This document shows positions 8,963 to 63,969 of a stretch of 64,000 bases of DNA, piece after piece. The notes beneath the pieces are model-generated. The model saw only the letters and a program-made list of their open reading frames with translations. It was not told the origin of the DNA and did no database searches. The stretch covers positions 6,317,627 to 6,381,626 of the forward strand of contig NC_058495.1 of assembly GCF_020382885.2 (NCBI RefSeq). Direction: 5' to 3'. The first letter of the stretch is position 1; each line of letters begins with the position of its first letter. This DNA is from Scatophagus argus (lineage: Eukaryota > Chordata > Actinopteri > Scatophagidae). The translations under genes and the position numbers were made by a program.

Positions 8963-9327
8963 CATCCATCCATCCATCCATTTTCTATACCGCTTATCCG
9001 TCAGGGTCGCGGGGGAGCTGGAGCCTATCCCAGCTGACTACGGGCGAGAGGCGGGGTACACCCTGGACTGGTCGCCAGTCAATCGCAGGGCCAACACACA
9101 AAGGCAGACAACCACACACTCTCACACTCACACCTGATGGGGCAATGTAGAGTAGCCAATTAACCTAATGTGCATGTTTTTGGTACTGTGGGAGGAAGCC
9201 AGAGAACCCGGGGAAAACCCACGCAGGCACAGGGAGAACATGCAAACTCCACATAGAAGGGCCCAGACCAGGATTCGAACCTGGAACCCTCTTGCTATGA
9301 GGCGACAGTGCTAACCACTGCATGGCA
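8963..9327 (-). mobile_element. tRNA-derived SINE, minus orientation
   Basis: The right end, read on the minus strand, is a tRNA-like head. It has an A-box-like CAGTGGTTAGCAC (9308-9320) and a B box GGTTCGAATCC (9271-9281). The body carries the segments ACATGCAAACTCCA and GAGGCGGGGTACACC. The left end is the tail, seen as repeated CATC units. A second copy of the same family lies at 63602-63956 in the opposite orientation. The family is common in fish genomes; I do not assign a family name. The promoter boxes identify it as RNA polymerase III-type. Confidence 0.85.
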
Positions 9328-16700: not shown

Positions 16701-18123
16701 AGAAAAAAAAATTAAAAAAATTAAAGTACCTGTGTTTATTTGCATGCCTGAGTGGCCTGTGTTTGAAAGATCTAATTTGCTTGTGTTTTACAAATTCATT
16801 GTTTTACAAATTATGGCAGTGGTTTAGCAATCTTAAAATCATCAAACCAGAGCATCTTGTTGCTTGTTTGCTTTTATAATATTTTCCTTTAGATATTATC
16901 TGGCTTTTACAGCAATGACAATGAGAAAGCAACTTTTGAGTTGTGTTGTCTCTGTCCATAATATGGTCTTAGCTGTATGTAGACAATAGTATGTAGTTTG
17001 TAATAACTCTGGATGGATAAGCACGTGTCATTCCTACAAATAAATGATCCCAGAAGATATCATTGTTTCACCAGAGAACCACACAGGAATGACCCAATAA
17101 CTTTTCCTTGCAGCCACCACAACGTTTCTTGTATAAAAAGTTGAACTTATTCCTATTTTCGCTGCATTCCCTCTGCATTGGCCAGCCAGTTTGATACCAT
17201 TTACTTGTCTAATTAATTCAACATCTCAATTAAGGCCTCCCACTCTCTGATGCCCCTGTGCTTTTTCATTATGGCCGGATGAGCATGCCCTGGCACCACA
17301 GTCGCACAGCCTGCCAAAACATTTCAATCACTGTCGGCATTAATTAGGCCAAAGAGGAATTCAGAATGTTAATGAACTGCCCAGCCGCTTTTCAGCGACA
17401 GTTGTTCACATGCTAATTTATGCAAAGCCTCCTAGCCTTTGCATGGGTTGACCATCGTCTACCATAACAGTGTCTGGGCTCAGTCAGATCAGCCAAGGTA
17501 TGGCTCTGTCAGGGCCCAGACAGCTCTGCCCAGCTTGTGTCCCAGACTCCAGCTGGCACAGTAAACAACTCCTTTTCAATTGGCTTGAAGTGGCTTTCAC
17601 ACTGAGCAAAAAGGGCAATTTTCTGAAGTCAAATCTTCTGTTTCTCCACTAAAACATCTCAAGCAACACCAAAAATCAGGATTTCTCAGCATGTATTGAT
17701 GAATCAACAACAATGAATTCTCTGAAATATTTTATGAACAAGCAATTCCTTAAACCAGGCTCAAAACCCTTAATACCATTCACTGGGTGAAAATAAACAG
17801 TCTATCTTATAGATAGGGATTGGATGGAGGAGGAAGAGGCAGAAGGAGGTTGCACCACAGATGTTGGGTACAGGCGCCAAACAGCTCCACAAAATGGCAG
17901 AGGTACTGCCATTTTACTTATTTCCTTCTTTGCTTTACACGACTTTGTGGTTGTTGAGACAGCTACTAACCACTGAATCTGAGATGAGTATGACCTTTGT
18001 ATTTTGGCTTATATGCAGTCTAAAAGTTGCTTCTCAACAATTGTTTGCCCCAGGTAAATCCAAGAACTCACATATTCTCACTTTATTTTTCTCCCACAGC
18101 TCGACTGACAAGTTTCTGCTGTT

Positions 18124-18213
18124 CCCAAGGCTGAGGTAGTAGATTGAATAGTTGTGGGGTATGAGTCCTCCCTCTGAGATAACTATACAGTCTACTGTCT
18201 TTCCTAAGGAGAC
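18124..18213 (+). ncRNA. let-7e: let-7 microRNA precursor (let-7e/let-7k type)
   Basis: The mature 5p sequence occupies 18132-18153. It starts TGAGGTAGTAG, the invariant let-7 seed region, followed by ATTGAATAGTT. As I recall, this matches zebrafish let-7e and chicken let-7k rather than let-7f, which has TGTATAGTT at the end. The 3p arm is at 18183-18204 (starting CTATACAGTCTACTG) and pairs with it along most of its length. One A-A mismatch sits where the let-7e-specific A lies. The terminal loop is about 29 bases. let-7 silences mRNAs carrying complementary 3' UTR sites and promotes differentiation. A second let-7 hairpin follows 286 bp downstream in the same direction, so both probably come from one primary transcript. 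No host gene is visible. Confidence 0.93.
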
Positions 18214-18407
18214 AGGTTGATCTACTGTATGTACATGGGAAGATCCATGGATAAAGGAATTCATGGACTCAGTGAATAAAGATTTAAGAGATAACCCTCC
18301 CCACCCCCTCACCCCCACCTTGAGCTATACTTGCAACATGCATTAAAGTTTGTATATATTGAGTAAAGTCTTGTTTTTAAGGATATCCATTGGTGCCTGA
18401 AGTTGAG

Positions 18408-18504
18408 CCTGGCAAGGTGAGGTAGTAGGTTGTATAGTTTGTGGGATGGAGTAAATCCTACTCAGGTGATAACTATACAGTCTATTACCTTCCTTGAGAG
18501 GTAT
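18408..18504 (+). ncRNA. let-7a: let-7 microRNA precursor (let-7a/let-7j type)
   Basis: The mature 5p sequence at 18418-18439 starts TGAGGTAGTAGGTTGTATAG and agrees at every base with canonical let-7a; chicken let-7j has the same sequence as I recall it. The 3p arm is at 18473-18494 (CTATACAGTCTATTACC) and pairs with it, and the flanks CAAGG and CCTTG extend the stem. The loop holds GGGAT (18443-18447) and GGAG (18448-18451). These fit the known LIN28 cold-shock-domain and zinc-knuckle motifs respectively, so processing is likely LIN28-sensitive. The numeric suffix of the locus cannot be set from sequence alone. It is clustered with the let-7e type hairpin upstream. Confidence 0.95.
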
Positions 18505-19872
18505 AACAAGTGCTTGGAACAACCTCTTTCACACCTAAGGAGTAATGAAGGAGCCACTCTGATGCCATCTTGTGGTCAAAGACTATCATCACTATGGAAA
18601 TTATCTAAGCTTGAGGACATTTGCTGTGTGCATCTGGGACCATATTCACAATACATCTTAAGGCTAGCAGTAGATCCTAACTGGCAGAGATAGGAGAAAA
18701 TTCTGAAAGATATTTCACAAAATATTTTAACATTAAATTGGTCCTAAGAGAAGTTAGAGGCAATCAAGAGGACTCCTAAAGGCACAAAGACCGACTTTCA
18801 GTCAGTAATTTGCTGAATGTGTCTTGTCGAACTCATAATTCCTTCAGTGTTGCCCACTATGAAGAATTCAATTGGTTCAACAACACATCAAAATAAACCA
18901 ATACCACAGGAGATGACAGTTGTGCTGATTATCAAATCCTGAGCTGTCAGAGAGGCTCATCAAAACAAAAATGCACTCTTTAGAACCCAGTTTGTAATGA
19001 CCCACTGTAATAAACACATAACTAAAGGTAACTTCATGGCCATTGCTGGACTATGAGGTAAAATGGGAGCCATAGCATTTGTATGAAACTGTTGAAATTC
19101 AAGGGATTATATTTCTGAAGTCAAATCTTCTGAATTTAATCAGGCCCTTAAAATTAAAGAGTTTATTATTATTATTTCACAAAATAAATCACATTTTTTC
19201 ATGGCCTAAGGCTGCTCAAAAACTTTTGAAACTTTGCACATGCATACTCTGTGTCTGTTATGGGTTTGGCCATGGGTGGGGCAAAATGGCTAGCTTTGGC
19301 CCTCTATAAAGCAGCCCCAATAAAATTAAGCAGTATCATACCTAGATCTACAAAAAAAGCATCTTCGTGAAATTACCTAAATCGAACAGGAGTCTGCCAT
19401 TGAATTTTGAGCCCTTTTTTTTATTATTATTATTTTTTATTACCTCTTACAGGCTGTACTTTAACCCTGTTCCAACCAATTTATCATAACAGACTTCATA
19501 TCTGGTCAGTACAATGATGAACACTATAAGGATGAAAAGTTGTTCAGAAAAAGTTTTTGTTAAAGGCTTAGCTGTGGATAATCGATTTTTTGCCAGTTAT
19601 AGCAACCACCTACTGATTTAGGATTAGGAAATAATAATAAATATTTTATTCTTGAAAAGCTTTTTCATTGAACAGGACTGCCATGGTAACAGCAAATTTG
19701 ATATTTTGCCTTTAAATGGGAAGTTATTGATATGCTAGGGATAATTAAAAGCCCATGAAACTTGGCCCTGGTGTCCCCTTCAAAATGAAAGTGATATGCA
19801 GAAAGTGGTAGGCACATGAAACATCTCAAGATGAAAATAAATAGATAAAATACATTTTTAAATATTACTAAA

Positions 19873-21513: not shown

Positions 21514-22752
21514 TCATTCAATTTTAGCCACACTGTTTATGTTACTGCTGACATTGTTGTCTGTCGTCTGGCTTGTCTGAGTTGCTTGTTTTTCTGCACC
21601 ACATGCAATATACTTGGTCCAGAGCTTCAGATAAGCTGTCTTAATCTTTTTTATTTTGAATGCATACACAACTGGGTTTACAGCTGAGTTGGCATGAGAA
21701 AGCAGGATGCCAACATAAAAGGCTGTTTTTAGAATATCATTTGACCCACCAAAGTAAGCGATACAGTTCATGATGTGCAGAGGGAGCCAAGACAGGGCAA
21801 ACAGAGCCAAGACCAGAGACAGGGATCCTGCCAGCTGTTTCTCTTTCCTCAGGTAGTTCTGAGACTGGATTTGGGCACCATTGCCTGGTTTCTCTCGAAG
21901 GTTTCCTCGAATAGTACAGAAAATGTAGCCATACAATACAATCATCACCAACAGAGGGATGAGAGTACAGAGGAAAAAGTTGAAGTAAACCAAGTATGAC
22001 ATGGGGATCACTGTTATAAACCGACAGACAATCGTGGAGTTGACTGAGTTAGACGAGGTTTCCTGGTTGTTCCACCCGAGCATGGGAGCAAAACTCAGAG
22101 GTAATGCAACAAGCCAGCATGCTGCTACAACAAACCAAGAGTGTCTCTGCGCCACAGTCCTTTTGTACCTAAAAAGGAAAACAGTAATGACTGGTATCAG
22201 CAACAAGTATTTCTGACAGCAGTGTCATAAAATGAATATTTCAAAGTAAAAATGTAATAATTTAAAAATCTCAGTAAGAAAAAAATATCATTCAAAGCTG
22301 TTTTGCAGTGCTAGCCTTGCTAATGGTCAGTGTGATAAAATCAATATGTAAAACTTGGAATTATGCTTTTAGATTTTTATAAGCATTCTGAACCATACAG
22401 GCATTAGTGTGTCTGAATAATCTTACCTGAGAGGGATGTACACCCGGAGGTATCGGTCCACTGCAATAGCAGTGAGAGACAGCACTGAGACCAGGGTCAA
22501 CAGGATGACCACACAGCTGAGGAAAAGACAACCATGGAATGAAGTCTCCACCCGTCCGTCCACCACCACAGCCAACGGTATGGCCAAGCAGCCAACCAGA
22601 AAGTCAGCCACAGCCAGAGAGATAATAAGGCAGAAGGTAGGCTGCTGAATGCTTTTACTGGTCCACAGTGCCAAAATAACCAACGCATTACCAAGACAAC
22701 AACTAACAGCAACGAGCACCTCCAACAATGTGTAAATCACTTCCACATCCAT
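21514..22752 (-). CDS. Divergent adenosine A3-like receptor (class A GPCR)
   Basis: Two coding exons, 22752-22427 and 22168-21514, meet at an AG|G arginine codon right after [10 protein letters not shown], the usual intron position in adenosine receptors. The spliced product is 326 aa with seven membrane segments, D50 in TM2, DRY 99-101, WLP 236-238 and NPVVY 273-277. Ligand-pocket residues T86 (3.36), N243 (6.55), S266 and H267 (7.42, 7.43) and the ECL2 phenylalanine F159 are present. It departs from the family at 3.37, where leucine 87 replaces Gln or His, and LAGSL replaces the usual AKSL at the start of TM6. An in-frame ATG at 22824 would add 24 residues. I prefer 22752 because adenosine receptors have very short N-termini. 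ECL2 CRFI resembles the A3 CQFV pattern more than CEFE of A1. Probably Gi-coupled by family. The typical A3 copy lies head to head at 30539. Confidence 0.88.
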
Positions 22753-25661
22753 TGTGCTTCTTATCCAGCTAATGCCTGGTAGGTAATAGTGTAGTGTGTC
22801 TGAACTGAAACTCAGTCTGAACATCAGTGCGCTGTGCTACTTCTTTTATCATTCATCTTGGTCTTGTGAAACCTTTGAGGAAGTCTATTGACACTCTTTT
22901 TTTTTCCGTGTGTGTGTGGTTTTTTTTTTTTTTTTTTTTGGAGGATTTTATCATTATTTGTTTGTCATTGTAACATTTAACTTCATGCTCTGCCAAAAAA
23001 ATAAATAATTAAGTAGGTTGTCACATTATATATATATATTGTACAAAAGATAAAAATATAAGAGCACCCAAGATATGTTTGGAGGAAATGAGGCTAAATA
23101 CGTGATAACAAATGAGAGTGCTTTACAGACGCATACTTACCAGTACTTGCACAGAGGTGCATTCCCATTAGCTTGCATAAGCAGCAGTAATTTTATCTGC
23201 ATAGAAATTTTAAACTTTGTGATTCTTAGCATTAAATTCGCACCATAATGATGACCTTTTGTTTTGAAATACCCTGGAGCCTTAAAGGTGAGTTAATCAC
23301 ATTCATACTCAAAACTCCAACGTCAAGAATTCAGTGTAATTTCATTAGTTTCTTACAAAGACATAACAAGTCAAGACTGAACTGACAGGAGCTGGATGAT
23401 ATTTTCCTGCAGTTGCAGTATGATGTTGCAGTGACTTTCATGATGGATTTTTAATTTTTGTTCGGCGTTGTTGTTGATTTCACTGAGGTAACATTAGGTC
23501 CATTTTGTTGGGTTTCTAACAGGATGAAAGCATACAGAGCAGTATTAAATGCAGTTTTGAGAAATCCGCTTCCACTCTAACCCTGATCCTAATCTAAATA
23601 CTCAGAATGCATTGCAATGCAAAAGTTTGTTTTTGTTGTGTACAGGTGGTTGCTGTGGTGCTGCTGGTGGTGATTGTGTTTCATTATCTAATGAAATGAA
23701 ATTATTGGTCATTGTGTGTGAAGACAGTCCACCACAAGGCCAGGCTTAAACACTGCTGAAGGTGTTAGCAAGCTGAGAAACTACATGAACGACAGAGAAA
23801 GTGGAGGCAAAATATCCAAAAACATGCAAGCCTGACAGCTGTGAGTACTGACAATAGCCATGTTTGGTGGCTCCATTTATCATGTCATTGTTGACAATGA
23901 CATGTTGTTTGATAACGTGTGAAGGAGACAGGAGGTAGTTGGATATGGTTAGTGATGACAAAAATGTGCTGCACTTTCACAGTCAGATGAAGTTAATTTT
24001 GGGTTGGATATTCAAAAGACTTTCACCCCGGAGTGTGGAATATCCAGCCTAAATTCACTGCGGTGCTTGAACAGCGCTGAGCCGAAGAACAGGTTGTTGC
24101 TGCACCATTGAGAACAGACTCGTTCAACAGCTAAACCAGTTTCTCAAAGCACGCACTGACAGCAGTGAACAGTAACTGCCGGACAGGGTAGACTTTTCAG
24201 ACTGAGGTATGTTTGTGATGGCTGTTTTGCTTGTGTTTATATGACTGTGGCATGTAACAGAGTTCACTCTTATATTTATCAGTAAAAAAGGGAGAACTTG
24301 TAGAACACAGCCAACTCATCACTCACATATCTCCTAAGTGGACATACAGGCTGTGAATGTAGTCAGGCAGTGAACATTCATGTGTTTCAAATGAGCGGCT
24401 TTGGAGGGATTCCTGAAGTGAGTGTGTAAAGAGCACAGATACTTCCAAAATCTAGCTGCTTTTACTTTTTTCCTGACTTCTCACTGGTACCGATGTCCAA
24501 ACTGCAGTAGAGGTTTTATGGAGAGATTACATTTATTGATGACACCAGTGTGTACTATTTATAACAGTATTTACTTCCCCTGAGTCGCCTGCTTTTCCTT
24601 TTTCTCTTCCTTTTGAGTGGTCAAGCAAAAACTAGCATAATTAATTTTATAGGAGGGTTTTGCAGCCAGATCTGATTTTAGCCCTCTTATTTTTTTAAGA
24701 AAAGGATTTAAGAAATGTATATTCAGTGGCAGTTTCACTCTTGTAAAGCTTTGACTAAAAGTAAAAACATGTTCAAGGAACTTATTTTAGCATAACCGAG
24801 CCACAGGAGCCCTGGATTTTTTTTTAAGACAACATAAATACAAAATAAGAATATTTCAATTTAAGTTGGCATTACTAATACTAATAAACAATAAAGTGAG
24901 TACACTCAATTAGCTTCACAGTATGCGCTTAAATATAAACCATATTCACATACAATACTCCAATATTTAGAACACAGACCTACTATTTAAGCCTTATCAA
25001 AAACATTTCATTTGGACCAAATGCATGCATTTTCTTTTTACATTCTCTCACTGTGCACTGTTTAAACACTGACGTTATCCAAGGTCCAACAACTGTACAG
25101 CTGTGCTCCACAGACTCATTCATTTGTTTCAAATTTCCTTCATTTTCTGGCTGGTTTTGTGGAGATCAGGTTAGTCATGGTTAAACGCTGTGCCTGGGAC
25201 ATATGTGATGGTGATACTCGTTACTCAGACTCAGAGAGGTTGGAAGGAGATATACATTTCTTTTCATTTGTTAAATCAATCATTGATCAGCACGTGTATG
25301 CTAATACTAGCAGCTGAATGTATACACAAGCTTAATAATGATGTCAACAGTGATCATATCCTGCCTTACAGGAACACTCCTTATGGTATTGTTAAATGTG
25401 GGTTTACATGGTTTTGTGGGTTTTTTGGCTTTGTGCAAATAACTAATAGGTGCAAAAAGTTTTAGAGACGAGGGCGCCTGCAGCAGGGGGCAGAGACCAA
25501 AAGCTGCGGTCAAGTTGGACAGTTTTAGGCAGCCTTCGATCTGTACAGGAAGTCACAGAAGCACTCACATCCTGTTAGATATTAATTCAGTTTATGAAAA
25601 TGTTATATCAGGCCCATATATCAGTTTGTACACAGTCTTTATTTTAATTAGGACAGTTTAT

Positions 25662-29556: not shown

Positions 29557-30538
29557 GATACCGTTAATTGGTGTCAGGAAATATAGCAATTACTTTCTTT
29601 TAAAGAAGTAATTGTAACGTTGGGAAATGCTCTTATTTGTTTTCTTGACATAAGTTGAATGGGAAAATTAATTCCACTTTCATACCTGTTCACTTAAAAA
29701 AGTTGCAGCCAGAAACTGTTTAGTTTGGCTTAGCGAAAAGACAGGAAGCAGGGGAAACAATTAGCCCAGCTATGTCCAAACACAATCAGCACCACTCAGC
29801 TCACTAATTAAAAAGTTACAGTTTCTTTATTTAGTTAATAAACCAAAGTTTTAAAATGATAAGTTGTCATTTTACAGGGGACTATTTTTTGGCCATGAGT
29901 AGTGACTTTCCTGAAGCCTTGTCACATGTTCTGTAAGTATTGAGCAGTTGAAAATTTAACTTGCTAGTGTTTTCTAATGGACCAAATATGTAATATCGAC
30001 TCTTTCCTCAAACATATCTTTGGCATTGCATGTCCATTACTCACTACGCTGATATGGATTCATCCATTTGGGAGTTTGTTACATTTAACACCCTTCTCGA
30101 AATGTATCTGGACACTTATTACACGAAGATCAAAAACCGCACGTACACACACACACTGTTAATGTGAGCAAAACTATTGCTGCAGGGAGCTGCAGAAAGC
30201 AAAGTCCCTCCCCTCAGGTTTATGACTCCTTTTTAGTGAGAGAGTGAGTGAGAGAGTAGCGATGTAGAGGAGAAGTGATGCACTGGTACCCAGTCCTAGG
30301 CAGAGCTTGAACAACATGGTGAGGATTAAATGTCCAACATACTTTAATGAGCACTTCAGGACCACTCGTTGTTTCATTGCGGCAATAAGAAAAGAGTACA
30401 GTTCTTTCAGCTAGAGAACATACATAATGGAAGGTGTTTTTTCTGAAGCAAACCCAAAGTGGAGGCTAGAAGATTCAACTACCAGCTTTCTTCTTTTACA
30501 GTCTGAGTAAAGGTAAGCCTGACCTGTGAACAGTCATA

Positions 30539-31382
30539 ATGTCTTCCTCTCCTGGTATCAAGCCTCGGGAGCATGTGGACATGATGTACATCTCCATTGA
30601 GACAGCTATTGCCCTGGCCTCCGTGCTGGGGAATGTGCTGGTGGTGCTGGCTGTGTGTGTGAACCGGGCTCTCCGCAACACCACCTTCTGCTTCATCGTA
30701 TCTCTGGCTGTGGCTGACATCGCTGTGGGGGTTCTAGTCATCCCTCTGGCTATCATCATCAGTCTGGGATTCAGCACTCAGTTCTACACCTGCCTCTTCC
30801 TCTCTTGTCTACTATTGATCATCACCCAGAGCTCCATCCTTTCCCTGCTGGCCATTGCCATCGACCGATATTTGCGAGTTAAGATTCCCACCAGGTGAGG
30901 GACTGTTGTAAAACCAACTGTCTGTGCTCTCCTTTGCTAGTGTCATAAACTGATTAAAAGACAGTAGAGATTAGGTTAAGATTGTGTTGGATGATGAATA
31001 TTGCGACGACAATGTCTCAAACAGTATTACACTATCAATATAATTGGCAGTGTTTACAGTAAGGACAATAAAATATTCATAACTGAGAGCAACAGGAAGC
31101 TGATGTGATGGTCTGCTCCAGTCCATTTCAGCTTTCTTGCTAAAAATAGTCTATGATTCAAATTATTCCTCTAAAATTTGTGATTAATATAAGTGCCATT
31201 TACCCTTCCCAAGTCAAATCAAATAACTTTAATTTCTATAAAACTGTTTCAGATTGCTTTCAGAACCAGCATCCTCCTCAAAAGCAAAACCACTTAATTT
31301 TCTAATAATTCTGATTTCTAAGCCTGCCACAAGACTATTATAAGAAGAAGAACTTAAGTAGTAGAACCTATAGTCTCTGGTC

Positions 31383-31420
<38 letters not shown>

Positions 31421-32919
31421 GTAACAATGAGATAATGTTATACTTTTACTTTATACTTGACTTGTAATTAGTCTGTAGCCTTAGTTGTGTATTGCTGTAG
31501 TGACCAGCAGTGACCTGGTGAGCCTACTGCTGTAGCCCCATAGTAAATAGTTTCCTGGGTAAAGCAGAGGGCAGGAGGACATCTCGATCCCACAGGAGAT
31601 TACACCCAGTCCTAAGTGCCTGAAATGGGTCACTGCCTTTTTATTGTACCTGACTGTTTTCGTCAACCTGTAGAGGAATGTTTGTGAAGCTCCAAACAAA
31701 GGACCAGAGACACATCAGAGAGTATAAAAATGGAATGAAGTCTTCAGTGCCATGTGGTTCTGTGTTTTGCCTCCTCTGTATATAGAGATTAATCATTTTG
31801 GTGCATGCTACCCTTCCAGTCTCGTTTTTTTATTCTTTTTAACTCACTACAGGCAGACAAGAACATACCGTAACATTAATATAACTACTATCATTACTTT
31901 TAGCATCAGGGACCAAATCGTGTGCTTTTAGCCTCAGAGAGTCAATCAAGGTGGTTCTCAGAGTCACTCAGTGTTGATGTCTGATGTGGCTCTATATATC
32001 GTGGAATGGTTTAATGCAAATCAATGGGCTGGACATGGAAAGCTTTTAAATAAATTAAAATGTTCCCGTCAGCCTAAATAGCTGATATATGCACAGTTTG
32101 TTAAGGGATTTTGGCAGTGGGCCATACTACTTTTTGTTTACCAGTTCTATCCTGAAGATGTATATTCTGAACAATAACCTATGATCTGGCATATGTTCAA
32201 AGAAATCATCATGCAGTATGTATGTGTCCATTTAGGCTATTAAAAAACCTGTGTTCATTGCCTTTCCACCAATCCTGTTCAGGTACAGCACCATTGTGAC
32301 CCAGAGGAGAGCATATGTGGGAGTTTGTCTGTGTTGGATCCTCTCTTTCCTCACTGGATTGGTTCCGATGATTGGATGGAATAACCATGATGCTCAAAGG
32401 AATATCAGCATTTCCAGCAACATTGTCTGTGAATTCACCACTGTCATGAGGATGGACTACATGGTGTACTTCAATTTCTTCGGCTGGGTGGTGCTGCCAC
32501 TGTCTATAATGGTTGCTCTGTATGGGGAAATCTTTAGGGTGATCCGACGACAGCTTAACCGGCGTGCTGAAGCCTGCTGTGATAGAGACAGATACTATCA
32601 GAAGGAGCTGAAGCTGGCAAAATCTCTGGCGTTGGTGGTCTTCCTCTTCATTGTCTGTTGGCTGCCAATACACATCATGAACTGCATTACCTTCTTCTGC
32701 CCAAAGTGTGATGTACCCAAGTTTGCTGTGTATGTAGGCATTTTTATGTCCCATGTGAACTCAGCACTCAACCCAATGGTTTATGCATTCAGGATAAAGC
32801 GCTTCCGTGTCACGCTGATCCAGATTGCTCACCGCTGCATGTTGTGTAAATCCAGGGAGCCCACTCCATGCCCCACCAACACACCAGCCCTGACAGAGAA
32901 AGCGGATGTAAACATGTAA
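30539..32919 (+). CDS. adora3: Adenosine receptor A3
   Basis: Two coding exons, 30539-30894 and 32283-32919, joined by a GT-AG intron inside an arginine codon after [10 protein letters not shown]. The product is 330 aa, the usual size. Landmarks are TM2 D60, DRY 109-111, T96 and Q97 (3.36, 3.37), WLP 245-247, N252 (6.55), S275 and H276 (7.42, 7.43) and NPMVY 282-286. [12 protein letters not shown] in TM2 and [10 protein letters not shown] after ECL2 follow human A3 more closely than A1, although [10 protein letters not shown] near TM6-7 is A1-like. The acidic residue that A1 and A2A carry after the ECL2 phenylalanine is a threonine here, as expected for the non-acidic A3 pattern. The receptor senses extracellular adenosine at the plasma membrane, with Gi coupling expected from the family. 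The ATG is the first in frame, 38 bases after a possible acceptor. Confidence 0.92.
31384..31420. repeat. (TTA)n microsatellite in the adora3 intron
   Basis: About twelve TTA units within the intron. Confidence 0.95.
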
Positions 32920-34494: not shown

Positions 34495-34632
34495 GTAAGA
34501 CCCTTCACGGTCATCCTAAAAAAGCTGCAACAAAGATTTAGAGCCTCATATGAGACACTGTACTTCTCGTAATTCTACATACTTTTTGATATTTAATATT
34601 ATCAGACAACTGAAGAAAACTTTAATTTGCAG
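34495..34632 (+). other. Probable 5' UTR intron of the small membrane protein gene
   Basis: The donor CTGTGAG|GTAAGA and the acceptor TTTAATTTGCAG bound a 138-bp interval that ends 17 bases before the ATG. Both sites are close to consensus. Confidence 0.55.
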
Positions 34633-34649
34633 AATCAAAGCACTGTATA

Positions 34650-34994
34650 ATGGCTGAAACGGAGGGAGCAGAGGGTGGCCGAGACTTGGAGGCTCCTGAG
34701 GAAGAGCTGGACGGCGAACAGGAAGCCTTGTTGCACTTTGGTAAATACAGTGAAGGTCGGCGTGCGCTACCTTGGGAGCAGTGGACCTTCAGAGAAAAGG
34801 CAAACTTTTATATCGACCGCATCTTCCTTGGGTTCTTAATCATATTCCTCATCTTGTTATTGGGAGAATGTGTCTATAAAATGTGGTATGTAACAGACGT
34901 GAAGAAGGTGGCAGCATTTGTGTCAGATTCAGTGGTCTTTCTGTTCAACTGGCTCTCCACCCAGGACAGAAAGGAGGAGCTGCTGGAACTGTAG
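34650..34994 (+). CDS. Small single-pass membrane protein, family not recognised
   Basis: A 114-aa single-exon reading frame. Residues 1-30 are acidic (Glu/Asp-rich). A segment with aromatic and basic residues, PWEQWTFREKANFYIDR, leads into a strong hydrophobic helix at about 57-75, rich in Ile/Leu/Phe. A second, weaker hydrophobic stretch follows at 87-102, and the end is charged (RKEELLEL). No signal peptide is seen, so a single-pass protein with a cytosolic acidic N-terminus is the simplest reading. The ATG has G at +4, sits just after a plausible UTR intron, and a poly(A) signal follows at 35142, which together support a real gene. It lies between adora3 and rplp2. I cannot name the family and infer no function. 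Confidence 0.72.
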   Translation: MAETEGAEGGRDLEAPEEELDGEQEALLHFGKYSEGRRALPWEQWTFREKANFYIDRIFLGFLIIFLILLLGECVYKMWYVTDVKKVAAFVSDSVVFLFNWLSTQDRKEELLEL

Positions 34995-37037: not shown

Positions 37038-37363
37038 GAATCAGCTTTATTGACAGTATATATATTTTTACATACACACACTGCATTTATCCCATCCTTA
37101 GTTGAACACACACATGCAACACCCAGCAAATTACATGCAGTGAAACACACACACAGGAGCAGTGGGCAGCATCAAGCGCCCGGGGAGCATATTGGGGGGT
37201 TAAGTGCCTTGCTCAAGGGCACATCAGCCAGCTAATGGAGGGGGGGCATTTTTCGCATTAATCACTCCACCACACCCAAATTTTTCTTGCCCGTCCGGTG
37301 GGGGAATCGAACCGGTGAACCTCCGATCACAAGCCGCTTCTCCAACCTCTAGGCCACGGCTGC
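37038..37363 (-). mobile_element. tRNA-derived SINE in rplp2 intron 1
   Basis: Read on the minus strand it begins GCAGCCGTGGCCTAGAGG, a tRNA-like head with an A box. The B box GGTTCGATTCC lies at 37303-37313. The far end is an AATCAGCTTTATTGACAG segment next to a GAA repeat. It differs from the SINE family at 9.0 and 63.6 kb. Confidence 0.8.
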
Positions 37364-41637: not shown

Positions 41638-44600
41638 TCAGCTGTCACTGTCGGACACTGGGTGGTCTGTACACGCCTGTAAAACACAACGAAAGAGTTT
41701 TAACCCAAACCTCTACATGTGCCTGTTTTATTTCTGACTGTTCATATGCTGCAGTACAAAAAAACACCAAGCTACTTCTAGTGTTTCATGTTATGTTGAG
41801 TTTTTTTCCATTTCCAACATGTCTGACGCTTACCTGTGTGTATTCAAATCGATCCTGTAGATAGCGGTTCCCCAGGCCAGTAATGTGACCTACATTCTGT
41901 TTGGAGAGCCTGGCTATCTTGGCCGTAAAGTCGTATGTAAAGGCCAGCTTGACCAGCTCAGGTGCAGTGGGCAGGACAGTGGGAGGATCGTGGATTGGCG
42001 ATACTTCTTTCCCCACATACGCATCAGCCAACTTCTGAAAGGAAGAGTACGACATCCGCTGGAAGAAGCTGCTCAGGGTGGGATTATCCCTCAGCTGGAG
42101 GAGATAAGGAGAGGAAGGCTTTCAGTAAATACTGTGTGCTTTAACCTATTTCACTGCTAATCAATATTCATGTTAAAAGGACAAATACACCATAATATAG
42201 CTTAAATAATCACCAATAACTAACAGCTACTGATAAAATACATCTCTATGTCTTTCTTATTTCAAGTTCTTTCATGGTCAGACATCTATTGATGATGACT
42301 GATTGAACGACTGGCCCTAAAAATAAAAATACTGTGATTTACAATCACATGTGACAAAGTCAAGCAGCAAATCCTCACCTTCAACAAGCTCTAACAGTGA
42401 AACATTTTGCTTCAGTGCTTAATTAATTCTTAAAATAAATGGCAATTCACCTCCTATCAATAAACTAATCAATTAATTGACTTAATTTGGTGTCCAATCA
42501 TTGTATGACCAGTTTTTGCAATTTTTTTGCAGCTTTTTTTATGAGACAGTGAAATAGGGCAGTCACATGACCAGGCCTTATGACTTTCTCCTCTCTTGCT
42601 CATCTTACAATTTCACTACTGTTACCACCATTGTACACCATGTCTCCGCAGCTTTCTGGGAAACAGAACATATTACATGAAGCTGTGCTCTGGAGTTTGT
42701 ACTCTCTATTAACCTAACTTTATAAACCTTTTTATGGTTTACTGGTGAGTCTTTTACTTTCTGTTACTGCATAACAATTAATTCTTTAATAATTAACTAA
42801 AAGCATAATCTTATGCACAGCCAGACCCTGTCTGAAGCATTTAAAACAATTGTTCTGTAAGTATTCCCAAATTATTGAATGCTACACAGAGTTTCAACTA
42901 ATATTTTACTCAAAACAGCGACGAATACCAACCTTGTCATCTATGGCATCACCCTGTTCCTTTGTCAAAGCTATGATCCTGTTGATGACCTCCTCTGAGA
43001 TAAAGCAAAAGCATTTTTTGATTTTTAACAATGCGGAACAAAAACAAGCAGTCAACAGAAGTGACAGGATGGTGGTACATTTTGTAACTTCACAAAATCA
43101 ACATAATTTTGAAAAATCAAATGTAGTTGCTTATTGTCTGGTGTGTATTAAACAGATTGGCTTTGTATTACTACCAAATTTACTATCCTATTGCAAAGCT
43201 ATTTAAAGTTTAATACTGCTATGAACTCTACACTTTCACATTATAATAATGAAACACTTTCTCACCATCAGACAGAAGTTCAACTTCCTCCTTCTCTTGG
43301 AGCTCATGAACAATTTTTTCCAGTTCCTCTGAAACTTTCTCATAGTAAGAGTACGTTGGTTCTACGCTGACAATGGCTGAAAAGCAAACATCAGTTGTTT
43401 GTAAATGCAGTTCTGTAAAAGCAATAAAGCATTTTACAACAGTAATATGGCCAAGACTTCCACTAATTCTGGTTACAAACAAAACATTTTAAGAGTAAAT
43501 CACATTACTTGAAACTGTTTATACAAATACGCTAATCTATCCAGACATGCTCAGTACTCAAACTTACCTTCAACTCGGGTGATGTCAGTAGGGTTGAGAT
43601 CTTTACTATGTTTATGTGGTCTTATCACAGATATCCGCTTTTTGGAGAGGCTCCTCTTTATGGATTTTCTTCTCGTAGACTTTCTTTTTTGTAAAGTAGC
43701 TGGGGTTGTTGGCAGGCACATGATCGGGGTTTCAGAGGCCTCTTCTGCGTGGGAGACCTCGGGAATCTCTGATGGACCATCCTCCTCTTCACTTTTCTCA
43801 TCATTACTCTTCCGATTGAAAACACCAAACAAGCTTTTCCAAAACGAAGTCTTCTTGTTCTTCTTGGATTTTCTGGTGGGTTTTTCGGATTCTTCGTGAA
43901 GTGTGGCAGAATGATTCGGGGGAGGCTCGACCTCAGTAAATGTAGCAATATCCTCATCCTTTAATCCCTCAGCCAAGGAAAGAGATGGGTCACTGGAATG
44001 TCGTCTTTGCCTATTTGGCTTTGTCACCCACTTTTCTTTCCTCCCAGTCTTGTTGTGTCCCAGGGACCCATCATTTAGGCTGAGGCTGCGCTTGACGTAC
44101 ACCTCCAGCAGACGGATTGTATCCTTGTGAGGCACAGAAATCAACTGGCCGTTGGTAGGCCTGTGGTTTTTTGTGTGTGTTTCCATGGCTGGAAGACTAC
44201 AATTAACAACAAAACAAATCACACATATAATAAGCTTTAAGACTGTTTTGCATCAAACCTCTGCCAATCACAGTTTGAAATCACTTGTGCTCTAAGCAGA
44301 CAACGAGCAATTTGGAAGATTTTAAAGCTAAAATGACTGGTCGATTAATTGATTAATCTGCTGACAGAAAAATGTTTTTTGAGTAATTTTTCAAACAAAA
44401 TGCTCAACAATTTTGAGGATTGATTTTACTGATCAGATAAAATAAGCAATAAATTAATCAAGACAACAGTCACCAGATTTAATAGACAGTCAAGCAAGCA
44501 TTGGCTGCAGCCCAAAACTTAAGTGAGGTTGGACCTAATCATTATTTTCTTACTCTCATGACCAACTGATTAAAGGAAACCGTTTAATACTTAATATTTG

Positions 44601-53897: not shown

Positions 53898-55589
53898 TCA
53901 GTGCATGCCATTTTTCTCATTCTGCCAGGTGCCGTTACTTTTGTTTAGTGAAGGTGTGCTTCCATACTTGTTTGCAGCTGACGCTTTCTGGGCAGCCTCT
54001 GCTGCTGCATCCATTATCTGTTTCTCCTCCTGCTCAGTTTCACGGTGGTAAAAATAGTTAAAGTTGGAGACGATGACAGGGACGGGCAAGGCAATGGTCA
54101 GAACCCCAGCAATGGCGCAGAGGGTGCCAACCATTTTGCCTCCCATTGTGATGGGGCACATGTCGCCATATCCCACAGTGGTCATTGTCACCACAGCCCA
54201 CCAGAAGCCATCAGGGATGCTGACAAACTGTGTCTGGGGCTCATCCACTTCTGCAAAGTAGATGGCACTTGAGAATAGGATGACTCCTATAAAAAGGAAG
54301 AAGATGAGCAGCCCAAGTTCCCTCATGCTGGCCTTCAAGGTCTGCCCCAAGATCTGAAGCCCTTTTGAGTGTCGGGAGAGTTTAAAAATTCTGAAAACTC
54401 TCACTAGACGAATGATTCTTAAGATTGCTAGGGACATGTTTTGACCAGCGTTCACATCATCATCAGGAGTCGTAGCCAGCTCTGTTCCCAGGGTTACAAA
54501 GTAGGGAATTATAGAGACTATGTCAATGATATTCATGATGTTATTGAAGAAGTCACTTTTGCTGGGGCACACCACAAAACGGACACAGACTTCAAAGCAG
54601 AACCAGATGATACAAATAGTTTCCACAATGAAAAATGGGTCGGTGAAATATGCAATCAGGTCTTTAGTGGCAGAATGAGGAGATGAACTTTCTTCAGTCC
54701 CATTGACATATTGTGTTAAACCTTGAACAAAGTCATTGTCTTCCCTGAACTCTGGCAGAGTCTCTAGGCAGAAAATGAAGATAGAAATGACAATGACAAA
54801 CACAGAAACCAGAGCTACAGATTTGGCTGCACTGGAGCTTTCTGGGTATTCAAACAGGAGCCAGAATTGTCGTTGCAGTTCGTTGGTGGGCAAAAGGACC
54901 TCTGGCTCTTTGATGAATCCTTCATCTTCACGGAACTGCTCCATGGCTTCGTGACCTAACTCATAGAAAACGATTTCATTAGCAAAAACATCTAATGGAA
55001 CATTGGCTGGTCTGCGGATTCTCCCCCCTGACTGATAGTAGTACAGAATACCATCAAAGGACGGGCGGTTTCTGTCAAAAAAGTACTCGTTTCTCATTGG
55101 GTCGAAGAAGCTTATCCTCTTCATAGGATCACCAAGCAGCGTTTCTGGAAACTTATTCAGGGTGCTGAGCTGGGTCTCGAACATTAGGCCGGAAATATTG
55201 ATGACAACTTTCTCATCTTTTTCTTCCACGCAGTGCTTTTCAAACAAGTCTTCACTCTCATAGCAATCTTTCACCATCTTACTGAAGACACTGTCGGTGG
55301 GAGACTCACTGTTGATCAGAAGCTTCAGATTAGAGATCAAACTTCCACTGCTGGAGTTAGCTTTAGTGGTCAGAGTCAGAGGAGTGGACGGTGACAATCC
55401 TTCTTGAGCAGGCTGATGGTCACTTCGTCCTCTATGTGGCGACTGGTGGGGAGAAGTCATATGATGGGGTAAAAGATTCTGATCAGGGGCCTCTGAGGTA
55501 GGTGAAGTCGGGTATCCTGAGTCACTCGGGTCTCCCAAGTTGATGCCGACATCATCCATGTTCTCAAAATTAACAAGCGGCACCTCCAT
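53898..55589 (-). CDS. kcna10: Voltage-gated potassium channel subfamily A member 10
   Basis: An intact 563-aa single-exon frame. The start [13 protein letters not shown] matches MEVALVNFDNSDE near the human KCNA10 N-terminus, as does [17 protein letters not shown] after the T1 domain. Order: low-complexity N-terminus (1-126), T1 tetramerisation domain (about 127-225), S1 about 257-275, an N-glycosylation site N296 in the S1-S2 loop, S2 about 318-338, S3 about 350-367, S4 voltage sensor with R391, R394, R397, R400, K403 and R406, S5 about 424-445, selectivity filter TVGYGD 471-476 and S6 with PVP 502-504. It ends NEKNGMH, without the PDZ-binding tail of most Kv1 channels. An in-frame TAG lies upstream of the ATG, so the start is firm. 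Tetrameric plasma-membrane delayed-rectifier channel. Coding without introns is normal for Kv1 genes. Confidence 0.95.
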
Positions 55590-55755
55590 TCCTTGTGCGT
55601 ATGTTAGCCACAGCTCCTTCTATCAGCCTGGTTCAAATGCAGGAGACAGAGGGGACACCACAACCAGTGCCACGCTGAAGATACTGGCAGGGCTTCCCTC
55701 CACCTGATTATCATTCAGACAGTATACAACTTTTGGATTCAGTCCTCTGTGTAAC
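55590..55755 (-). other. kcna10: kcna10 5' UTR exon segment
   Basis: On the minus strand, TTTTACCTCCCATCTTCTACAG ends at 55756 and is a strong acceptor (pyrimidine tract plus CAG). The 5' UTR therefore appears to be spliced to an exon further right that I could not place. Confidence 0.6.
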
Positions 55756-61700: not shown

Positions 61701-63588
61701 AGTCAGTAATAGTTATTAAAATACTTTTTCTATCCTCTGTGAGTGCACTCTTCATTGTTTGGGCTGAGGATTAGTAGTTGATAGAGACTCCCATGCAACT
61801 CTGAGGACTGTTACTGCACTAAGGAGATTATGCAACACAGCAGATCAGCCTGGAGAATCACCCCCATAGATGAACAGTGTGGACTAAATACTACAGACTT
61901 AATTGAAATGTCTGGATTGTTTCCAGCCTCACTAATCAAAAGACAAGTGCTAATCTTGGATGACTCTTTGGACCTGACGCAGTAGAGGGAGGGGGTGAGT
62001 GTCCACAACAAACCAATCAGACTGCAACCACAACACTGAACACTGCAATCCTCAGTGGTTTAAACTCACTGATTAAACTACACTTTCTTTTGCAAACATT
62101 CACCCTTTTTCTCCTGCTCATCCCATCCTCTGCTATTAGAGCACAGGAACATCCTGTAGCATTTGAATTCATAACGTGTAAATTCCTTCCAATCACTATC
62201 ACACGCAGTGAGAAGACAACTTTTCCTTCCAGATACCATACAGGGAGAATGCATGCCATACACCACCCACTAGACATCAACATTGCTCACCGTTGGACAG
62301 GGAGGTTCCACGGCTTCAGGAGCTCCGAGTTCACGCAAAGCCTCCTGAGTTACTCTGGGCCTCCTCCCAATGCTCCATATGGCCTGTTGTAGTGTACAAA
62401 ACAGTGTGATAGTGAAAAATTATCAGTGAGCACCATCAGATTGAACATTAGCTGTAATTTTTTAACATTCAACTACAATGATCACATTTTTTTTAAAAAA
62501 AATGTAAGTAAAAGTAAAATAAGAATAATCCACATCAAAGCAATTCAGCATCAAAATCTGGAAGGTTTTCTCAATACTATAATTACTGATAATGAAAACT
62601 ACAGTAATTCTTTAACTTCTATAAAATAATCAGATTTCTTTTATTAGTTCTACTGCTTAAATTTAAAGCATCTATTTATTGAAAAAATGCCTAAAATCAA
62701 GATGTATACATTTGTCTGTGATTATTTTTTAATTTAAACCAAATACTAACACTGCATAGGTTAAGAACACTACACTAGTTTTAAAGTGAAAAGTATTAAA
62801 TTAAATTTACCTTGTTATCCACTAGCGACAGAAGCTTGTCTACACTCGGTCACGCATCCTCTTAGATTAAGTATCCAGTGGCAGAGTCTTAAGGAACAGT
62901 TGTAAATCTCTGTGAGGTTTTGACAGAAGGCGGGGAAGTTACAGTTAAATACTCCATGAAGAGACAGATGTTTTGAACAACACCTCATTCTCATCCGATT
63001 CACTCAGTCTGGATAACACGCAAATAAACAAATCCTCCCCATTCATATATATTCTTAGTGGCTGTAAAACAGGACACATCAGGACACTAGATGTCACTTA
63101 AGAAGCCAGAAACTCCTGTTTGTGCAGCATGGGGCTCATTTTTCTCACTGCTAGTGAAGTCCTGAACCTGTCTGTCTGCCTGCCAGGGGCTCTTGCTTGG
63201 CTCTCTATCATATTTCACACTCAGCATCCATTGGTCACATGCCAGTTTTGTTGTATGTGTTCACCTCTCTGCTCTCTTTCTTGTCTGTTTTATTTTTGTT
63301 GAAAGACAGTGGGCCTTGAAAATACAACAAGAATGATGTGTTTTGGTTATGCCATCACAAAGATACAGCTTCACAGTTATCTACTATGGCTATGCTAAAC
63401 TAACTCAGCCTCAGTTGTACTTTGTGTTTAGTGCTAACCAGCGTGCATTAGCTTGCTAACATGCTGAACTAAGATGGTGAACAAGGTAAAGATTATATCT
63501 GCTTAACATCAGTGTGCAAACATTGACATTTTGAGAATGATAGTATGCTAACATGAGCATTTAGCAAAAAAAAAGAAAAAAGTTTAAC
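55757..63588. other. Region upstream of kcna10
   Basis: No supported coding gene. It probably includes kcna10 leader exons and promoter. Repeat fragments are seen at about 57520-57620 (AATCAGCTTTATTGAT, like the 37-kb SINE) and 59140-59195, and 63360-63570 resembles a fish repeat rich in GCTAACATG words. Confidence 0.5.
59140..59195. repeat. Fragment of a fish interspersed repeat
   Basis: ATATTATTGGGTAGTTTCATC and AATGCATCATATTTTAT correspond to an internal part of the repeat type also seen at 45.4 kb, as I recall it. Confidence 0.5.
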
Positions 63589-63969
63589 TAAATACAGTTC
63601 CGGGCGGCACAGTCATGCAGTGGTTGTCACTGTTGCCTCATAGCACGAGGGTTCCAGGTTTAAATCCCGGTCTGGGCCCTTCTATGTGGAGTTTGCATGT
63701 TCTCCCTGTGCCTGCGTGGGTTTTCTCCGGGTACTTCGGCTTCCTCCCACAATACCAAAAACATGCACATTAGGTTAATTGGCTACTCTACATTGTCCCT
63801 AAGTGTGAGTGTGAGAGTGTGTGGCTGTCTGTCTTTGTGTGTTGGCCCTGTGATTGACTTGCGATCAATCCAGGGTGTACCCCGCCTCTCGCCCGTAGTC
63901 AGCTGAGATAGGCTCCAGCTCCCCCAGATAAGCGGTATAGAAAATGGATGGATGGATAAATACAGTTCC
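63589..63969 (+). mobile_element. tRNA-derived SINE with target-site duplications
   Basis: The element body is 63602-63956. It starts with a tRNA-like head GGGCGGCACAG and CAGTGGTTGTCACTG, has a mutated B box GGTTTAAATCC, and ends in (GGAT)n. It is flanked by an identical 13-bp duplication, TAAATACAGTTCC, at 63589-63601 and 63957-63969. Same family as the copy at 8963-9327, opposite orientation. Confidence 0.92.

Follow-up and report, generated by a model that had tools for sequence, protein, structure and literature searches.

A let-7e/let-7a-type microRNA cluster of Scatophagus argus, present in two chromosomal copies without GGAG at its usual place in the loop

Known let-7 clusters

Neighboring let-7e and let-7a genes have been published for several fish species, as let-7e/let-7a-5 in zebrafish, let-7e/let-7a-2 in medaka, and let-7e/let-7a-3 in fugu (PMC5372658, Table 1). 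The zebrafish genes lie within 3 kb of each other (PMC2427041, Table 3). In chicken, let-7j and let-7k adjoin on chromosome 26 and have been detected in lung and trachea (PMC2777939). In a review table covering five species, let-7j is entered for zebrafish alone and let-7k for no species at all, so that both are missing for human and mouse. The same review gives the human clusters as let-7a-1/f-1/d, let-7a-3/b, and let-7f-2/mir-98, ascribing them to the vertebrate genome duplications, and places mammalian let-7e in the mir-99b/125a cluster; the shared name let-7e therefore does not mean the same gene (PMC4742387).

Two let-7 hairpins in the window

The window, that is, the whole 64-kb stretch of DNA that was analyzed, covers C3 6317627-6381626 of an assembly of 570,666,677 bases (570.7 Mb) in 48 contigs. 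It contains two let-7 hairpins, hp1 and hp2, with the following parts (window positions):

18126..18207, plus strand: hp1, precursor hairpin of the let-7e/let-7k type (RF00027 score, 65.2 bits; fold z -3.5)
18132..18153, plus strand: mature 5p strand of hp1, the same as in the C8 duplicate
18181..18202, plus strand: 3p arm of hp1, set from base pairing, with predicted ends
18412..18497, plus strand: hp2, precursor hairpin of the let-7a/let-7j type (RF00027 score, 75.0 bits; fold z -6.0)
18418..18439, plus strand: mature 5p strand of hp2, the same as in the C8 duplicate
18471..18492, plus strand: 3p arm of hp2, set from base pairing, with predicted ends

In an Rfam search of the window, both hairpins exceeded the gathering score (53.5 bits) of RF00027, the Rfam let-7 covariance model. 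Each folds into a stable hairpin with the seed GAGGUAG on its 5p arm, and only 1 of 200 shuffled sequences folded as well as hp1 and none of 200 as well as hp2. The mature 22-mers are TGAGGTAGTAGATTGAATAGTT in hp1 and TGAGGTAGTAGGTTGTATAGTT in hp2. Between the two precursors, the 5p strands agree at 20 of 22 positions and the 3p arms at 18 of 22. Allowing up to 2 mismatches to the let-7a 22-mer, 2 sites were counted when the window was scanned on both strands, with an expectation of ∼1.6e-5 at equal base frequencies. The 11-mer start TGAGGTAGTAG is weak evidence by itself: with no more than 1 mismatch allowed it occurred twice, a count reached in 21 of 100 shuffled sequences. The hairpins lie side by side on the same strand, let-7e type followed by let-7a type, if the 22-mer of hp1 is, as we take it to be, the mature sequence of zebrafish let-7e and chicken let-7k. 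Copies of this let-7e-type 22-mer numbered zero in the viral and zero in the prokaryote collections.

The Rfam search, taken to an E value of 0.5, returned 5 matches in the window, namely, hp1, hp2, two antisense shadows of them, and a potassium channel editing signal (see below), so that a third hairpin or a further RNA family could be rejected. From 18000 to 18650, every one of the six frames is interrupted by stop codons, and neither hairpin is overlapped by a stop-to-stop frame of 110 or more aa. The initial annotation had described two plus-strand let-7 hairpins 286 bp apart within 18124-18504, with mature arms and 3p partners visible and no protein-coding gene around them. The scores, folds, and mature starts at 18132 and 18418 bear out this description, the 3p arms are present in both hairpins, the interval is off by no more than a few bases, and, judging by the frames listed above, the pair lies outside coding genes. 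The pair may nevertheless lie inside an intron of an unseen transcript. A coding host gene was considered and rejected: among the best 60 matches between 949 window frames of at least 35 aa and 200 kb of C8, the coding-like upstream ones belong to a repeat at 8.9 to 9.4 kb with copies elsewhere.

The let-7 set of the genome

A genome search with RF00027 gave 22 matches, corresponding to at least 21 let-7 loci above the cutoff, the remaining match being the antisense of one locus. The number 21 is a lower bound, since only the best 57 of 79,599 first-look candidates were scored. Fourteen of these loci form seven tight pairs and 7 are single. Judging by the mature sequences and by the zebrafish pair names of PMC5372658, the pairs presumably comprise one let-7a/f, two let-7a/b, two let-7g/h, and two let-7e/let-7a pairs. 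The latter two are the window pair on C3 and a pair on C8. The two let-7g/let-7h-like pairs (C8:3101273-3101785 and C8:13239806-13240142) share one chromosome, ∼10 Mb apart, whereas the let-7e/let-7a copies are on C3 and C8. The doubling of let-7 sets, like the size of the genome, is as expected for a teleost.

With the other clusters accounted for, the pairing supports the identification of the window pair as the published fish let-7e/let-7a cluster. It thus adds one more gene pair of an already known kind to a cluster already described, and it is probably also the counterpart of chicken let-7j/let-7k. The let-7e/let-7a-type assignment made initially finds support in the published fish pairs, in the adjacency of the two chicken genes, and in the review table without let-7j or let-7k entries for human and mouse.

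Duplicated block on C3 and C8

The second copy of the cluster is found in the following places:

C8:11740080-11740162, minus strand: let-7e-type duplicate of hp1, mature 5p strand as in the window
C8:11739768-11739854, minus strand: duplicate of the partner, hp2, mature 5p strand as in the window

The order and orientation of the two genes are those of the window, with a spacing of 308 versus 286 bases. The mature 5p strands are identical between C3 and C8 at 22 of 22 bases for both hairpins, and the hairpin stretches are 89.9% (hp1, over 89 bases) and 86.8% (hp2, over 91 bases) identical. The four 85-base flanks, by contrast, scored at or below the shuffled mean; alignable similarity is gone there, which argues that the hairpins are under constraint. 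In a tree of the 21 precursors, the let-7e-type copies grouped together with a support of 99/96 and the partner copies with 98/92; when the four bases of the loop slot described below were removed, the support was lower, at 94/88 (hp1) and 95/89 (hp2).

The window contains three likely protein-coding genes next to the let-7 pair:

21514..22836, minus strand: adenosine receptor gene A (two exon frames), converging on the let-7 pair, as does the receptor gene beside the C8 duplicate
30539..32919, plus strand: adenosine receptor gene B (frames spanning 30530-32919; its two exons together encode 330 aa), A1-like according to its best matches
53898..55619, minus strand: KCNA (Kv1) channel gene, a single open frame, with a counterpart on C8

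The best match of receptor gene A is A3 in the long exon and A1 in the short exon, and that of gene B is A1 in both. Genes A and B stand head to head; among the matches listed for 200 kb of C8 surrounding the duplicate, a single receptor place was seen. The best PDB match of the channel is KCNA2, and its N terminus resembles KCNA10. The coding region of this gene includes a match to K_chan_RES, the Rfam potassium channel RNA editing signal (54063-54176, minus strand; 113.3 bits against a gathering score of 51), which may be explained by coding conservation alone. Three further protein-like frames, 34626-34991 (plus), 41789-42121 (minus), and 43554-44252 (minus), had no Pfam match at an E value of 0.001; the last two could be parts of a single gene with some likeness to BCL2-like or BNIP5 proteins.

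When the 64-kb window was compared with 200 kb of C8, the strong matches confined to a single place were the KCNA gene (73% identity over 471 aa), an adenosine receptor gene (short exon, 62% over 107 aa; long exon, 40%), and the two hairpins. Other strong matches are multicopy and look like dispersed repeats. There were also four weak DNA matches of 38 to 126 bases (E values of 2e-8 to 3e-6), involving window positions 63405-63530, 29620-29743, and 24225-24262. In both copies, the receptor gene and the let-7 pair are convergent, and the KCNA gene follows farther out, oriented like the receptor gene. Presumably, the chicken let-7j/let-7k pair is likewise accompanied by KCNA and ADORA3 genes. 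The initial annotation had pointed out this neighborhood for the chicken pair; adenosine receptor and KCNA genes are present in the window as well as beside the C8 duplicate.

As far as the sequence comparison goes, the likeness of C3 and C8 is accounted for by duplication of a block and subsequent selection on its hairpins, and the teleost genome duplication would be the simplest cause of such a block duplication. The long exon of the C8 receptor gene (C8:11738251-11739167) extends over two reading frames, 11738251-11738790 and 11738844-11739167; an additional intron, a shift of frame, or an error in the assembly would account for the split. Window repeats at 8969-9322, 37081-37362, and 63602-63956 have copies in the neighborhood of the C8 duplicate with 79 to 88% identity, and the C8 places matched by the first of these repeats are also those matched by the last.

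Loop motifs of the cluster

In each precursor, the tetranucleotide eight bases before the 3p arm was taken as the slot of the GGAG motif, the arm being set from base pairing. For C8:3101692 the slot was set by hand at ten bases, a two-base shift, as its GGAG was seen at -10. GGAG occupies this slot at 15 of the 21 loci. The two let-7e copies have UGAG there, their two partners GGUG, and the two loci of the let-7a-3 type UCAG. GGAG is therefore lacking at this place in exactly three duplicate pairs. In the window, the relevant features are as follows:

18175..18178, plus strand: slot of hp1, UGAG, where 15 of 21 loci have GGAG
18465..18468, plus strand: slot of hp2, GGUG, where 15 of 21 loci have GGAG
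18448..18451, plus strand: displaced GGAG on the 5' side of the hp2 loop, with none in the C8 duplicate

Accordingly, neither UGAG in hp1 nor GGUG in hp2 fits the GRAG consensus at this position beside the 3p arm. The cold shock domain motif GNGAY is found in all four cluster loops (in hp1, its only copy adjoins the 3p arm) and in neither of the two let-7a-3-type loops.

On the tree built without the slot bases, the fewest slot changes are three. In topology tests on this tree, a single clade of the six motif-less loci was disfavored (p-AU of 0.030), grouping of the let-7e type with the partner was borderline (0.063), and grouping of the let-7e type with the let-7a-3 type was not rejected (0.127). 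Motif losses that are common to duplicates on different chromosomes are no recent accidents of the window copy.

The gene pair itself is ordinary and expected; what stands out is the loss of the LIN28 motif across the whole cluster. That both genes and their C8 duplicates are without this docking motif at the usual place is an unexpected feature. Among the titles and opening lines of abstracts that were covered, which represent only part of the literature, none reports on the state or loss of the motif in this cluster. One study of let-7 loops omitted rare genes such as let-7k from one of its analyses (PMC4232593). The cluster is not addressed in passages of PMC1388199, PMC7996739, PMC4858913, and PMC4159003, and let-7 goes unmentioned in PMC12688097.

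Possible escape from LIN28

The state of the slot suggests reduced LIN28 control of the cluster. Precursors without GGAG at its usual place might then mature while LIN28 restrains other let-7 genes, a reading that we consider possible, with the odds somewhat against it. Besides the motif counts, in which the cluster and the let-7a-3-type copies depart from the other 15 loci, two reports argue for it. The zinc fingers of LIN28 bind GRAG in the let-7 loop, which all human members have except let-7a-3, reported to escape (PMC5368188). Similarly, changing the GGAG of pre-let-7a-1 lowered Lin28a binding more than tenfold, and pre-let-7a-3 is cited as unbound (PMC5311490). Other data point in the opposite direction. 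In chicken DF-1 cells, let-7k-5p is given as one of 4 let-7 RNAs, out of 17, that changed opposite to Lin28B, the chicken loop being outside the present comparison (PMC7823903), and in the Xenopus mir-363 loop a changed GGAG left lin28a binding at 58% rather than abolishing it (PMC4982076).

The loops themselves also give reasons for caution. On C3, hp2 keeps its displaced GGAG, and the cold shock motifs remain in all four cluster loops, unlike those of the let-7a-3 type. The zinc knuckles have a relaxed motif, AGNNG, and the AGGUG found at the partner slot on both C3 and C8 fits it.

A broader proposal would be that the whole cluster, found in fish and probably in birds and unlisted for human and mouse, escaped LIN28 by losing GGAG from both precursors before the teleost duplication, forming with let-7a-3 a LIN28-independent branch that supplies let-7 in LIN28-positive fish tissues. 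We regard this as rather unlikely. The interest of the cluster would lie in whether mammals are without a set of let-7 genes from which other vertebrates can produce let-7 despite LIN28. The question of escape also bears on LIN28-driven regeneration in fish.

Functionality of the window copy

The C3 hairpins have longer branches in the precursor tree than those on C8 (0.21 versus 0.019 for hp1 and 0.14 versus 0.019 for hp2), as could be expected if the window copy were a decaying duplicate whose function is carried by the C8 copy. However, mature strands without a single change, good folds, and scores above the Rfam cutoff have been retained while flank similarity was lost, which makes decay very improbable; the branch lengths possibly reflect asymmetric evolution after duplication. 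Least credible of all is the production of antisense, mir-3596-like microRNAs from the minus strand, on which hp2 does fold well (z -4.7, 0 of 200 shuffles as good; hp1, z -1.2, 26 of 200), but the matches to RF04289 (55.2 bits) and RF00027 (37.3 bits) are below the gathering scores of 96 and 53.5, as expected of the reverse complement of a hairpin.

The locus can be described, with little doubt, as a two-gene fish let-7e/let-7a cluster in two chromosomal copies, on C3 and C8, that most likely works like other let-7 genes. By analogy with the family, a single primary transcript would carry hp1 and hp2, Drosha and then Dicer would cut out the 5p strands, and these would repress mRNAs through the let-7 seed. 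Motifs that help to define the Drosha site are weak, with CNNC at +20 in hp1 and none in hp2, and a basal UG in hp2 only. The predicted folds leave a uridine unpaired at the processing site (U18132, along with C18131, in hp1 and U18418 in hp2). An unpaired uridine at this site is described for group II let-7 precursors in PMC4742387, so that the precursors of hp1 and hp2 can be expected to be mono-uridylated as members of this group. The part played by mono-uridylation is a matter of dispute, little influence on Dicer cleavage in vitro being reported in PMC10806991.

Comparison with known let-7 clusters

Like the window pair, the zebrafish, medaka, and fugu clusters combine one let-7e with one let-7a gene. 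The table in PMC5372658 has one such cluster per species, as opposed to two here, a difference that annotation gaps in the other genomes could explain, the comparison being one of table entries. Chicken let-7j/let-7k on chromosome 26 form a tight pair, as the genes do here, although with 200 bases between their starts compared with 286 and 308 between the mature starts in the two copies from this genome; the comparison covers pairing and spacing. The human clusters let-7a-1/f-1/d, let-7a-3/b, and let-7f-2/mir-98 likely have counterparts in this genome, as judged by mature sequence and pairing, with tentative type names. The let-7e/let-7a type represents a further cluster beyond the human ones, and the table of PMC4742387 has no let-7j or let-7k entry for human or mouse.
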